Positions 8 to 6,161 of a stretch of 52,931 nt of DNA are shown piece after piece (position 1 is the first letter of the stretch; every line of letters starts with the position of its first letter). The stretch lies in contig ONTT01000012.1 in the NCBI GenBank assembly GCA_900320865.1, positions 1 to 52,931 on the forward strand, in the 5' to 3' direction. The notes below the pieces were generated by a model that saw only the letters and a list, made by a program, of their open reading frames with translations, was not told the origin of the DNA and made no database searches. A program made the translations under genes and the position numbers. The stretch is from an uncultured Bacteroidales bacterium (GTDB taxonomy: Bacteria > Bacteroidota > Bacteroidia > Bacteroidales > Paludibacteraceae).

Positions 8-220
8 ATGAAGAAACATGTATCGAAATCATTGACGATTATTCTGCTTAGCGCAGTCACACTCGCCGCCGTAACCATCGGCGTCTGTAGTTGCAAGGCT
101 TGGAGAACCATCTCCACTACCGCAACTTACGTTCAGCAGAACGACTCGGTCAAGAACCAGACGACCTCGACCATCACTACCAAAACTTCTGAAGAATACG
201 TAGGTGTTCGGAAGAAATAA
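8..220 (+). CDS. small secreted peptide or lipoprotein, 70 aa
   Basis: Unrecognised small protein. Residues 1-27 form a basic N-terminus plus a hydrophobic segment; Cys27 and Cys29 follow it in a loose lipobox-like context (V-C-S-C), so it is probably a secreted peptide or small lipoprotein. The rest is rich in Thr, Ser and Gln and ends in E-E-Y-V-G-V-R-K-K. It faintly resembles the very short Bacteroidales peptides called smalltalk proteins, but I cannot confirm this. The ATG at 8 is chosen because it directly precedes the signal-like segment; only 7 bases of upstream sequence are visible. A second, diverged in-frame copy of its last codons lies at 326-355, after a structured element. Confidence 0.6.
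   Translation: MKKHVSKSLTIILLSAVTLAAVTIGVCSCKAWRTISTTATYVQQNDSVKNQTTSTITTKTSEEYVGVRKK
191..220 (+). repeat. gene tail copy 1 (codes EEYVGVRKK, stop)
   Basis: Last nine codons and stop of the small gene. It pairs with the copy at 326-355, exactly 135 nt (45 codons) downstream and in the same frame. Confidence 0.75.
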
Positions 221-322
221 TGGGGTCCCCGGAAATCTGCCGATTTTTGGGGAGAGCGGAGCTGCTCCGAGTACTCCTTACTAAAACGTAGTTTTGGTAC
301 ATGTACGAGGAGTTTGCCCGCG
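221..322 (+). ncRNA. structured RNA element, copy A
   Basis: It begins directly after the stop codon of the small gene. Visible helices: an 11-bp hairpin (227-237 with 242-252, loop TGCC); a 9-bp hairpin (279-287 with 291-299, loop GTA); a 6-bp helix enclosing it (273-278 with 308-313); and a possible closing helix GCGG 256-259 with CCGC 318-321. Copy B at 887-987 keeps these helices with different bases, including double compensatory changes. Conserved single-stranded or core parts are the GAGAGCGGAGCTG block, the GTA loop, GTACG and TGCCCGCG. In frame with the upstream gene, the element contains no stop codon. I do not recognise the family; a regulatory RNA, an mRNA 3' protective structure or a mobile palindromic element are all possible. 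Confidence 0.7.
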
Positions 323-325
323 GTA

Positions 326-355
326 GAGGAGTACCAAGGTGTGAAGAAAAAGTAG
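326..355 (+). repeat. gene tail copy 2 (would code EEYQGVKKK, stop)
   Basis: Diverged repeat of 191-220 in the same frame. Most differences are third-position or conservative (gaa/gag, gtt/gtg, cgg/aag, aag/aaa, taa/tag), which implies the copy was under coding constraint or came from a coding paralogue. Confidence 0.75.
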
Positions 356-488
356 CGTCGTCAATTAGGTCGGATGACATCCGACACCTCCCACAGCCGC
401 AAAGGGCGCTCGGCTCAAAAGAAAGCGCACACATCTACTTACTCACTATTCCTCCAAGCGGTTAGGAGTTATGTTAACCGCAAACACT
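356..488 (+). other. leader of the 129-aa gene with three hairpins
   Basis: Noncoding. It holds a near-perfect palindrome GTCGGATG-A-CATCCGAC at about 372-388, an AGCCG/CGGCT hairpin at about 394-415, and a 7-bp hairpin GCGGTTA (458-464) with TAACCGC (475-481) whose loop contains an AGGAG-like motif and the ATG at 471. No TAnnTTTG promoter is seen, so the downstream gene is probably cotranscribed with the first. Confidence 0.5.
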
Positions 489-878
489 ATGGGAAAAGTA
501 GTTTATTCGCCGGGTATCGAGTATGTACAAGGTGCCTTGGCTAAAGCGAAAAAGAAAGACGGTCACATCTGCGGTGACTATCTGATTGGTACCCACCGTA
601 CCGCTGCAACGGAAAACCCGAACTGTACCCGCCTGTACATCCGTAAGGGCACTTCGTACGAGCGTACGACCGCGCTGACGTCCAATGAGTTGGATGCACG
701 CGCTCGCTTCGCTGCTGTAGCGGCTGCTGTGAAGGCTCGTAAGAGCGATCTGAACAAGATCACTACGGACCAACAGAACTTCGCGGCTCAGAAGGATCAA
801 GCCGGTGGCAAAAAGACCATGCGCGCCTACTTGTGGAAAGTCTGCGGTCAAGAGTATGACGCAGCCCACAACGGCTAA
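489..878 (+). CDS. unrecognised basic 129-aa protein
   Basis: Start chosen at ATG 489 (M-G-K-V-V-Y-S-P-G) rather than ATG 471, because the 471 ATG lies in the loop of a 7-bp hairpin and the extra six residues look unstructured. The protein has no signal peptide or membrane segment. Its N-terminal ~60 residues are rich in Lys, Arg, Gly and Tyr; the middle is an alanine-rich, probably helical region (E-L-D-A-R-A-R-F-A-A-V) followed by Lys/Gln-rich helices. It is probably cytoplasmic and possibly nucleic-acid binding from its charge, which is inference only. It lies between structured RNA copies A and B and just before a strong terminator, so it likely forms a two-gene operon with the small peptide gene. 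I cannot name a family. Confidence 0.7.
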   Translation: MGKVVYSPGIEYVQGALAKAKKKDGHICGDYLIGTHRTAATENPNCTRLYIRKGTSYERTTALTSNELDARARFAAVAAAVKARKSDLNKITTDQQNFAAQKDQAGGKKTMRAYLWKVCGQEYDAAHNG

Positions 879-886
879 CCCTTAAT

Positions 887-987
887 TGGGGCCCCCGAGG
901 ATTTTTAATCCTTGGGGAGAGCGGAGCTGCCCCGAGTACTTCCTACCTGAACGTAGTTTAGGTACACGTACGAGGGGTATGCCCGCG
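887..987 (+). ncRNA. structured RNA element, copy B
   Basis: It starts 8 nt after the stop codon of the 129-aa gene. Helices: 893-903 with 907-917 (11 bp, loop TTT); 944-952 with 956-964 (9 bp, loop GTA); 938-942 with 974-978 (5 bp, two G-T pairs). These match copy A pair for pair. Changes that keep pairing include A-T to G-C at two adjacent positions and C-G to T-A in the first hairpin, and A-T to T-A in the second. The core at 917-937 differs from copy A at one base only. Unlike copy A it is not followed by a recognisable copy of the preceding gene's tail. Confidence 0.7.
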
Positions 988-1006
988 AGGCTAATGAGCC
1001 GTGTAT

Positions 1007-3985: not shown

Positions 3986-6051
3986 TTTTTTCGAAGAAAC
4001 ATATATTCATCTTTGCTCTTTGCTCATTGTTCCTTACTCTGAGCGGGTGCTCGGTGCAGCAGCGTATCAAGCGGGCGGATAAGAAGTTCGCTATCGGCGA
4101 GTACTACACGGCCGGAGATATCTACAAACAGTGCTACAGTCGCTTGAGTACGAAGAAAGACCGCGACCTGAAGGGTTATGTCGCTTTCCGGCAAGGCGAG
4201 TGCTATCGGATACTGAACAACACCCGTGCGGCGAACTGTTACCAGAGTGCGCTGCGCTGCAAATACCAGCAGCAGGACTCGATCATCTATCTCCGAATGG
4301 CGCAAGTGCAGCAATACCAGGGTAAGTACAAAGACGCGGCAAAGAACTACGAGATCTACCTCGAGGCGCATCCCGATAGTTATGTAGCCAAAGCCGGTCG
4401 GTACGCGTGCGCCAAGATAGACGAGTGGAAGCGCGAGACGAGTCGGTATAAGATCAGCGAGGCGAAAGCCTTCAATGAGAAACGCACGAGTAACTTCGCG
4501 CCTATGTTTATCGGTTCAGGCGACGATGCACTGGTCTTCACTACCAACAGACAGGAGAAACAGACGGGTACGAAGAAGTTGAAACGCCCGAGTAATGTAA
4601 CCGGCCAGCAGCTCTTCCAACTCTATCAGACGCGTAAGAACGCAGCCGGCGAATGGGAGAACTTCGAGCCTGTGGAAGGTCTAATGGGCAGTCCCGATGA
4701 ACAGCAGCAACAGAACGACTCCACCTCCAAACAGGGCGGTAGTGCCGAGATGGGTGTATGCTGCTTCACGCAGGACGGCCGCACGATGTATTTCACTTAC
4801 TCGAAGCCGATCAACGGTCAGGACTTAGGAGCAAAGATATGCCGCAGCGAACGTGCCAGCGGTGAATGGGGTGAGGCGCAGGAAGTGAAACTCTTTGCCG
4901 ACAGTTCCATCACAGTGGGTCACCCCGCTTTGAACCGCACGGGCGACACCCTCTATTTCGTGAGTGACGCTCCCGGCGGAGAAGGAGGAAAAGATATCTG
5001 GATGGCCGTGCTGGACGGAGACGACTGGACCGACGTGCAGCCGCTGGGCAAGAGTATCAACACCTCTGCCGATGAGATGTATCCCTATATCCACGAAGAC
5101 GGGACCTTGTATTTTGCCAGCAATGGTCACCCGGGCTACGGAGGACTCGACATCTTCAAAGCAACACGCGACACAACGGTCAAAGACTCGACCGTCTGGA
5201 TCCTCTATAACATGGGTGTCCCCTTCAACGGGGCCGGAGACGACTTCGGCATCACCTTTGCCGGGAACTCCCAGAACGGTTTCTTCTCCTCCAACCGCAA
5301 TGACAAGAAAGGCTTGGATAAGATATACCAATTCGTGCTGCCGGAAATGGAGTTCATCGCGGAAGGTGTGGTGAACGACGAGTTAGGCAACCCGATAGCC
5401 GATGCCAAACTGCGACTCGTGGGTTCGGACGGTACGAACAGTAAACTCAACGCCCGTCGCGACGGTACGTATAAGATCAAGATCAAACAAGACGTGAAAT
5501 ACGTGATGCTGGCTACAGCACGCGGTTTCCTTAATGCCAAAGAGCAATGGAACACCTTTGGTCTGAAGGACAGCAAGACCTATACGCTCAATTTTGCGCT
5601 CAGCCCGATCAGCCGACCCGTGAAAATGGAGAATATCTTCTATGAGTTCGGACGATGGGAACTGACGCAAGCCTCTGAGGCGGAACTGGAGCAACTGGTG
5701 AAACTGCTGAACGATAACCCCAATATCACCATTGAACTCAGTGCGCACACCGATATGAAAGGAACGGATGAGTTCAACAACGAGTTGAGTTTCAAACGTG
5801 CCCAGAGTTGCTGTAACTACCTCATCGCGCATGGTATCGAGAAAGAACGCCTCACGCCGGTAGGATACGGTAAGACCAAACCCGTCATTGCCGACAAAGC
5901 GCTGCACACCCAATATCCGTGGATTCCGGAAGAGCAAGTGCTGGATGAAGGATTCATCCTCAAACTCAAACCGGAGCAGCAGGAGATATGTAATGCCATC
6001 AACCGTCGCACGGAATTTAAAGTTGTAAAAACAACGTACAAACTGTATTAG
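3979..6051 (+). CDS. PorE-like OmpA-family lipoprotein
   Basis: 690 aa. Type II signal peptide with lipobox L-S-G-C (Cys24), TPR-like helical repeats ~30-150, a PD40/WD40-type beta-propeller region ~165-455 (repeated G-G-x-D-I-W/F blades), a carboxypeptidase-regulatory-like domain ~460-550, and a C-terminal OmpA peptidoglycan-binding domain ~565-690 (L-S-A-H-T-D, R-A-Q-S, V-G-Y-G). This order and length match PorE of the type IX secretion system, a periplasmic lipoprotein thought to anchor the machinery to peptidoglycan. Other OmpA/TPR lipoproteins share the architecture, so the PorE assignment is probable rather than certain. The ATG start comes from the repeat tract. Confidence 0.8.
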   Translation: MNIFSKKHIFIFALCSLFLTLSGCSVQQRIKRADKKFAIGEYYTAGDIYKQCYSRLSTKKDRDLKGYVAFRQGECYRILNNTRAANCYQSALRCKYQQQDSIIYLRMAQVQQYQGKYKDAAKNYEIYLEAHPDSYVAKAGRYACAKIDEWKRETSRYKISEAKAFNEKRTSNFAPMFIGSGDDALVFTTNRQEKQTGTKKLKRPSNVTGQQLFQLYQTRKNAAGEWENFEPVEGLMGSPDEQQQQNDSTSKQGGSAEMGVCCFTQDGRTMYFTYSKPINGQDLGAKICRSERASGEWGEAQEVKLFADSSITVGHPALNRTGDTLYFVSDAPGGEGGKDIWMAVLDGDDWTDVQPLGKSINTSADEMYPYIHEDGTLYFASNGHPGYGGLDIFKATRDTTVKDSTVWILYNMGVPFNGAGDDFGITFAGNSQNGFFSSNRNDKKGLDKIYQFVLPEMEFIAEGVVNDELGNPIADAKLRLVGSDGTNSKLNARRDGTYKIKIKQDVKYVMLATARGFLNAKEQWNTFGLKDSKTYTLNFALSPISRPVKMENIFYEFGRWELTQASEAELEQLVKLLNDNPNITIELSAHTDMKGTDEFNNELSFKRAQSCCNYLIAHGIEKERLTPVGYGKTKPVIADKALHTQYPWIPEEQVLDEGFILKLKPEQQEICNAINRRTEFKVVKTTYKLY

Positions 6052-6071
6052 TAGAAAGTAGAAAGATAAAA
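6051..6071 (+). repeat. GTAGAAA heptamer tract
   Basis: GTAGAAA, GTAGAAA, GATAAAA directly after the stop of the PorE-like gene; the same unit type occurs at 18944-18990. Confidence 0.75.
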
Positions 6072-6161
6072 GACCGTCCACGTCCGTGGACTCAAAGCCG
6101 CAAGACGCTTTATACTTTGAGCGTAGCGGTCTTTATACTTTGAGCAGCTTAACTGCGGTCT
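6069..6161 (+). other. structured, internally repeated leader of thyA
   Basis: AAAGACC (6069-6075) pairs with GGTCTTT (6128-6134) and encloses a GTCCACG/CGTGGAC hairpin (6076-6082, 6085-6091) and a CTCAAAG/CTTTGAG pairing (6091-6097, 6115-6121), giving a three-way-junction-like fold. A 15-nt direct repeat CTTTATACTTTGAGC occurs at 6108-6122 and 6131-6145 (23-nt spacing), and GCGGTCT recurs at 6126 and 6155. It could be a cis-regulatory leader of thyA-folA or a repeat remnant. Confidence 0.45.

Follow-up and report, generated by a model that had tools for sequence, protein, structure and literature searches.

A double-hairpin repeat near-restricted to one genus of gut bacteria, probably a mobile non-autonomous element with its 3′ end often set against tRNA and tmRNA genes

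The window, the whole 52,931-nt stretch of DNA analysed here, is the start of the 52.9-kb contig C26 of a draft genome (1.97 Mb, 82.65% complete). Two small genes, ORF1 and ORF2, are each followed by a segment of about 102 nt (Table 1). These segments sit where an earlier note on this DNA had placed them, and each was predicted to fold into two hairpins (A and B). The RNA folding energies were −48.1 kcal/mol for copy 1 and −55.0 kcal/mol for copy 2, far better than those of shuffled sequences, of which 0/200 folded as well as either copy. The compensatory changes described in the earlier note were confirmed in the sequence. In hairpin A, the pairs 233–246, 234–245, and 237–242 of copy 1 (A-T, A-T, C-G) are replaced by 899–911, 900–910, and 903–907 of copy 2 (G-C, G-C, T-A), and in the second hairpin the pair 283–295 is changed on both sides at 948–960. 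These four double changes correspond to columns 13/26, 14/25, 17/22, and 63/75 of the alignment of own-genome copies. The structure had been called unrecognised, and in the Rfam search no family reached its curated threshold; at E ≤ 10 there were only eight weak matches, near a terminator at approximately 1027–1055. Short tandem repeats of AATGAATAATG with T runs were also observed at 2029–2120, after an esterase gene.

Table 1. Features of the repeat copies and their host genes in the window.
Feature	Position	Strand	Evidence or remark
ORF1, host gene of copy 1 (at the 3′ end); small and lipoprotein-like by eye	8..220	+	7 matches at E ≤ 0.01 in own genome
Left ORF1 gene end (SEEYVGVRKK stop)	188..220	+	Same 33 nt in G350, element there too (by eye)
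Element copy 1, TGGGG...GCCCGCG	221..322	+	R1 match 111.6 bits (copy itself in model); fold z −5.6
Hairpin A, copy 1	226..253	+	Predicted fold; covariation helix 1
Hairpin B, copy 1	256..321	+	Predicted fold; covariation helices 2–3; closing GCG/CGC, CGAG/CGAG internal loop, GTA triloop
Right ORF1 gene end (VEEYQGVKKK stop)	323..355	+	Form of paralogue C64; 20/33 nt identical to left copy
ORF2, multicopy host gene, copy 2 just past its stop codon	471..878	+	Homologue comparison
Gene end GGCTAA followed by CCCTTAAT, on the left side of copy 2	873..886	+	By eye
Element copy 2	887..987	+	R1 match 115.9 bits (copy itself in model); fold z −6.6
Hairpin A, copy 2	893..917	+	Predicted fold
Hairpin B, copy 2	921..986	+	Predicted fold
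GGCTAATGAGCC, native gene end as in element-free L411/L413; repeats GGCTAA (6 nt, weak alone)	989..1000	+	By eye

The count of two copies proved too low. In the own genome, blastn gave 17 pieces at E ≤ 10, and the covariance model R1, built from eight own-genome copies, gave 21 matches at E ≤ 10 and 14 at E ≤ 0.01. The second model, R2, gave five matches at E ≤ 0.01, three of which were counted as new, bringing the total to approximately 17 copies. The searches of Bacteroidales genomes found further homologues, and the pairing was kept in those that were aligned. R1 matched 27 of 61 genomes, all within the 37 genomes of the own genus and none among the 24 of other families, and R2 matched 29 of the 37. 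In a search over the order with stricter filters (295 genomes, 183 genera), the two genomes that R2 matched belong to the own genus; the 293 outside it gave no match. A pattern scan gave, among the matches listed, mainly Paludibacteraceae or Bacteroidales records from ruminant and other animal guts. Eight loci labelled Mycobacterium, Planobispora, or Tautonia were taken as chance GC-rich matches and omitted from the target count. L148, labelled Prevotellaceae (a label that may be older naming), has one copy with a tRNA directly behind it. L104, labelled Clostridia, has hairpin-A-type matches at 445–515 and 2761–2811 (E 0.008 and 0.0004) and no proper hairpin B; it may be a misbinned contig, a chance match, or a member of a wider hairpin A family. 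The element is dispersed and near-restricted to one genus of gut bacteria.

The element is approximately 95–120 nt long and consists of two hairpins on one strand, with the plan T-GGGG-N-CCCC-(hairpin A)-GGGG-AGA-GCG-(hairpin B)-CGC-G. Hairpin B falls into several sub-families with different stems, which share the closing GCG/CGC, internal loops, and single-base bulges. By eye, comparison of the two ends, TGGGGNCCCC and CGAACGCG, showed no terminal inverted repeats. The copies are mosaic: an extra hairpin module of about 50 nt (GTGAAGAAGTGCC...GGCACTTC...CTCGG) is present at the GGGGAGAGCGG joint between hairpins A and B at two places in G000 (C19 18113 and C33 89284; L018, L019) and in the G026 rpsA leader (L227). 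It is missing from L092, which is 98.75 and 97% identical around the C19 site.

Covariation was strong in both alignments. In the eight own-genome copies, 10 of 36 pairs were changed on both sides, which none of 500 shuffles reached; the slid controls gave 0–2 double-changed pairs, but 6 at +1. Further pair types, one of the five measures, were not above the shuffles (275/500 reached the value). The commonest sub-family was represented by 33 copies chosen by sequence pattern from related genomes, two of them from the own genome. Here double changes affected 13 of 23 pairs (124 cells; 0/500 shuffles), against 3–6 in the slid controls. The covariation score of these copies was 0.444, compared with 0.147 for the shuffles, none of which (0/500) reached it, and at most 0.083 for the slid controls; further pair types were again not above the shuffles (477/500). 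The fold is preserved while the sequence diverges. The earlier note took the double changes as selection on RNA structure. Preservation of the pairing, by selection or by copying, is strongly supported; the functional form may be RNA or folded single-stranded DNA. By our own sums, G-U pairs filled 9 of approximately 727 paired cells in the commonest sub-family (33 copies) and 21 of approximately 243 in the sub-family of the window, where they are not rare. Over 118 hairpins, their share was 2.9% for the element strand, compared with 1.3% for the opposite strand. The G-U content is not decisive between folded DNA and RNA.

ORF1 and ORF2 (127–135 aa) were observed as multicopy, neighbouring gene families in the genus (the window, L411–L413, and others). 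Pfam, NCBIfam, and PHROGs gave nothing over the cut-off for either ORF (best PHROGs E 0.02), and ORF1 had no Pfam match of any kind. Element-free homologues of ORF1 have VEEYQGVKKK or a near variant as their end, and the paralogue C64 is an element-free site. In the window, the gene end ACT-TCTGAAGAATACGTAGGTGTTCGGAAGAAATAA is followed at once by the element and then by GTAGAGGAGTACCAAGGTGTGAAGAAAAAGTAG, the usual gene end. The likeness of the left and right ends is clear at the protein level and is absent from the scored repeat list. G350 has the same arrangement; its left end is identical over the 33 nt, and its right end has decayed. For ORF2-type genes, 37 distinct 3′ ends were found by pattern in the fetched loci, and 11 of them carry an element just past the stop codon. 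Eight ORF2-type cases were picked because the repeat had already been seen by eye; in seven, KVCG..YD..H.G or a similar motif stands on both sides of the element, and in L048, the remaining case, the motif on the right has decayed. Compared with L411 and L413, copy 2 has a flanking repeat of GGCTAA only, with CCCTTAAT before the element. The flanking gene-end repeats may come from a variable-length target duplication followed by divergence, or from recombination with an element-bearing paralogue.

In ORF2-type genes, the 6–10 nt leading up to the element were also seen by eye to be reverse-complementary to the beginning of the repeated gene end (TGGAAAATTT...AAATTTTCCA). This TGGAAAATTT/AAATTTTCCA pairing is kept through changes in several species (L024 (C36), L015 (C58), L043, L044, L048, and L070).

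From the position after each ORF, the earlier note had suggested a regulatory, processing, or mobile role in a two-gene operon. The mobile option fits, and the idea of an RNA belonging to the operon does not, since both small genes have element-free homologues in this and other genomes. For the same reason, the position after each ORF points to insertion at gene 3′ ends.

Filled and empty sites were compared at several conserved loci. The rdgB gene of G000 contains an antisense, in-frame copy, and G006 has an in-frame copy at the same place; the apical 9-bp stems of the two copies differ throughout, and both still pair. Other relatives have shorter, different, or no inserts at this site. The in-frame insertion was seen in this one gene, without a systematic scan. 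The element was present in 2 of 20 readable rpsA leaders (L211, L227) and missing from 18, the other 10 of 30 loci being unread by the script; in G000 and G026, it lies between the rpsA promoter and the start codon. The RNase P RNA gene has an insertion in L131 and is empty in L060, L155, and L089. The tRNA-Leu spacer is filled in L179 and empty in L248, L256, and L247, and the tRNA-Gln site is filled in L156 and empty in L127. The near-identical genome L092 (= G061) had 72–100% identity among the matches listed and one imprecise empty site (L034/L286), and no target duplication was found in this empty-site comparison. Exact empty sites were rare because the spacers between these species diverge, and base-by-base insertion was not observed among the compared species. 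A 5′-truncated copy was noted singly in L250, without a systematic count. Judged from these sequence comparisons, the repeat is mobile, occupying sites that are empty in relatives. Another palindromic repeat (AATGATGGAATGAGCGC...GCTCAATGATGAAATG), unrelated to this one, was also observed in frame in rdgB (L012, approximately 5625–5670; L244 and L248).

The target preference was determined in 148 copies with unique downstream flanks, namely 95 pattern matches (among those listed) and 53 R2 matches from six genus genomes. Duplicate downstream flanks and flanks under 30 nt were omitted, and L104 was retained despite its lack of a proper hairpin B. Among the matches listed there were 162 pattern copies; the folding rule found the 3′ end in 139, and the other 23 include some false matches. 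A total of 62 R2 matches were examined in the six genomes, and for the 53 genus copies the 5′ end was placed approximately, at 40 nt before hairpin B.

A tRNA or tmRNA gene lay within 10 nt on the 3′ side in 24/148 copies and on the 5′ side in 0/148, with approximately 0.4 expected per side; random intergenic positions in the same loci gave 0.3% per side. The 24 neighbours comprise 11 isotypes plus tmRNA, 21 in sense and 3 in antisense direction, and 20 of them lie at 1–3 nt. At least four of the 23 copies mentioned above also have tRNAs a few nt downstream and stand outside the 24 (L022 and L074; L085 and L125 by eye). An opposing −7 promoter motif was found in the first 16 nt downstream of 13/148 copies, compared with 0–4 in each of five windows from 16 nt on. 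The 3′ end (CGCG) is near tRNA/tmRNA genes and opposing promoter motifs far above chance, and the 5′ end is not at tRNA genes. Selection against damage alone fails to predict this polarity.

On the other side, a sense promoter motif occurred in up to 10/148 copies per 16-nt window at 16–48 nt upstream. The 5′ flank is A/T-rich and G-poor and in some cases, such as L026 (by eye), is a terminator. Flanking direct repeats with a score of at least 30 were found in 9/189 cases, with 0.6 expected. Some of the nine were already there in the empty site (L065/L137) or resemble tandem units of the locus (L058, L376), and three are in the ORF2 family. The flanking repeats at gene ends measured 6, 33, and approximately 42–45 nt, and none were found at tRNA sites.

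Three other target classes were rejected. A start codon (ORF of at least 60 aa) lay at 0–5 nt in 10/148 copies, but 7 and 6 were counted at 18–23 and 24–29 nt, so this class is weak and matched by farther windows. Insertion 5′ of hairpins in general was examined in 114 flanks without listed tRNAs, where the mean z was −0.72 downstream and −1.11 upstream. With 20 downstream and 29 upstream flanks below z −2, the upstream side is if anything more structured, as terminators would give. Insertion into hairpin loops gave no clear excess of flank inverted repeats (3 versus 1.4).

Some single loci were recorded separately. Elements of different sub-families stand 1–2 nt before tmRNA in L140 and L365 (ARAGORN) and in L033 and L278 (similarity), and by eye an element also precedes tmRNA in G000 and G061. 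In L016 (approximately 5946–6124), a full element lies just before tRNA-Cys (ARAGORN), and in L022 (approximately 1950–2060), hairpin A alone lies just before a tRNA (Rfam); by eye, both are followed by a sufB-like gene.

We consider the repeat to be, probably, a mobile non-autonomous double-hairpin element, and hold any single mechanism with much less confidence. The folded strand would be recognised by a mobilising enzyme, and insertion would join the 3′ end to the target first. Target-primed copying of an RNA or single-stranded intermediate may fit better than cut-and-paste with a fixed-length target duplication, because the repeat length varies (6 to approximately 45 nt), extra bases occasionally stand at the 5′ junction, one copy is 5′-truncated, and the 3′ end is fixed. 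Neither of the two enzyme families searched, Y1 transposase and reverse transcriptase (RVT_1), tracks the copies.

A possible but still doubtful form of such movement is SINE-like, in which the element RNA is reverse-transcribed at the target by an enzyme acting in trans, giving a fixed 3′ junction with variable 5′ junctions and target duplications. The fixed 3′ ends, the looser 5′ ends with the truncated copy in L250, and the varying repeats are consistent with it, as are the sense promoter motif upstream and the 21/24 tRNA/tmRNA neighbours in sense direction. RVT_1, however, was found in 9/37 genus genomes, which are incomplete, and no match was present in the copy-rich G034, G035, G022, G003, G017, G007, and G001, which argues against a resident enzyme of that kind. 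Just one truncated copy was noted, and G-U pairs are few in one sub-family. We speculate, with less conviction, that the element may be a bacterial counterpart of tRNA-gene-targeted retroelements. A double-hairpin RNA of approximately 100 nt would be copied into the chromosome with its 3′ end fixed at tRNA/tmRNA genes and promoters, protein genes would be spared because the gene end is repeated upstream, and the enzyme would lie outside the two families searched.

It is unlikely that the repeat is REP-like and that a Y1 HUH transposase (RAYT/TnpA), recognising DNA hairpins, moves it in the form of single-stranded DNA. The hairpins are strand-specific, G-U pairs are few in the commonest sub-family, and the element has C(GNA)G triloops, which are very stable in DNA. 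Y1 genes were found in 16/37 genus genomes (12 over the cut-off). They were present in 9 of the 16 genomes with at least five R1 copies, compared with 7 of the 21 others, a weak trend in the favourable direction. A copy lay at 2 of 21 Y1 loci (L194, L201), on one side only in each, where approximately one is expected from the copy density; the other 19 had none at E ≤ 1. No Y1 match was found in G034, G002, G004, G006, G014, G026, and G036, all with at least five R1 copies, or in G017 and G001 with 28 and 18 R2 copies. Variable-length flanking repeats would be unexpected under this mechanism, and G-U pairs are not rare in the sub-family of the window. Long RAYT-like Y1 proteins of approximately 330–440 aa, with a partial Y1_Tnp match only, were observed in several genus genomes (L191–L210).

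A conserved leader RNA that aids the processing or expression of tRNA, tmRNA, or mRNA, with dispersal secondary and copies kept for function, seems to us more improbable still. The 3′ end is flush with tRNA/tmRNA 5′ ends, promoters lie upstream of some copies, elements precede tmRNA at the loci given above, and the orthologous rdgB site keeps its pairing despite a wholly different apical stem. However, the same tRNAs have empty sites, some copies are antisense to tRNAs and promoters, others are inserted inside rdgB and RNase P RNA, and few rpsA leaders carry the element. Some copies of a mobile element may serve as leaders. Recombination sites of gene cassettes (attC) can practically be dismissed: an imperfect hairpin after small genes that keeps its structure while its sequence varies would suit them, but inverted core boxes of the attC type were absent by eye, and many copies are located next to tRNA genes or within other genes.

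The spread of enzyme-less palindromic repeats, among them Rickettsia palindromic elements (RPEs) and mitochondrial hairpin elements, still awaits an explanation. The present family offers a wealth of diverging copies and sequenced relatives, sites both filled and empty, and a sharp, directly testable target rule, with the 3′ end against tRNA/tmRNA ends. It also calls for caution, as strong covariation in a short gene-adjacent motif is no proof of a host regulatory RNA; an equal covariation signature would be left by a mobile element that needs its fold to move. The polarised placement, in which tRNA/tmRNA genes lie within 10 nt of the 3′ end but not of the 5′ end, appears to be new. Neither this family nor a bacterial repeat within a few nt of tRNA genes was found in the open-access literature, outside which most subscription journals lie.

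REP and REPIN sequences are dispersed hairpins in bacterial intergenic regions, and in this the present family resembles those associated with RAYT. Unlike them, it has no consistent link to the Y1 genes of the genus, and at none of the 21 Y1 loci do copies stand on both sides of the gene. MITEs such as Correia/NEMIS and RUP are described as small non-autonomous mobile repeats (PMC2229807). The present element differs in having no terminal inverted repeats (by eye); a fixed-length target duplication was not seen at the sites compared.

The mitochondrial DHE, RHE, and GC clusters are described as short mobile hairpins without an enzyme, whose units are merged and shuffled (PMC2800124, PMC4478555). 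In one sponge, mitochondrial RHEs are reported to lie within rRNA genes and, between genes, on the 5′ side of many tRNA genes (PMC2800124), and yeast GC clusters are reported with short AG/ACT flanking repeats (PMC2800124, PMC4478555). The present element is on a bacterial chromosome and measures approximately 100 nt, and its flanking repeats are long and variable rather than short AG/ACT.

RPEs are described as palindromic sequences of 105–146 bp inserted in frame in conserved protein genes (PMC2229807). According to the same account, they also occur inside tmRNA and RNase P RNA genes, and their mobiliser is not shown there (PMC2229807). The present family is likewise a dispersed palindromic repeat near-confined to one genus (L148 and L104 do not fit a strict limit), with in-frame insertion in a conserved protein gene (rdgB of G000 and G006) and insertion inside RNase P RNA (L131), but it lies beside tmRNA, not inside it. 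In contrast to RPEs, it consists of two hairpins with fixed ends and strong covariation, its 3′ end adjoins tRNA/tmRNA genes and opposing promoters, and gene ends are repeated at some of its sites. By analogy, the family may work like RPEs and mitochondrial hairpin elements, to which we liken it by description without filing it as a member of either.
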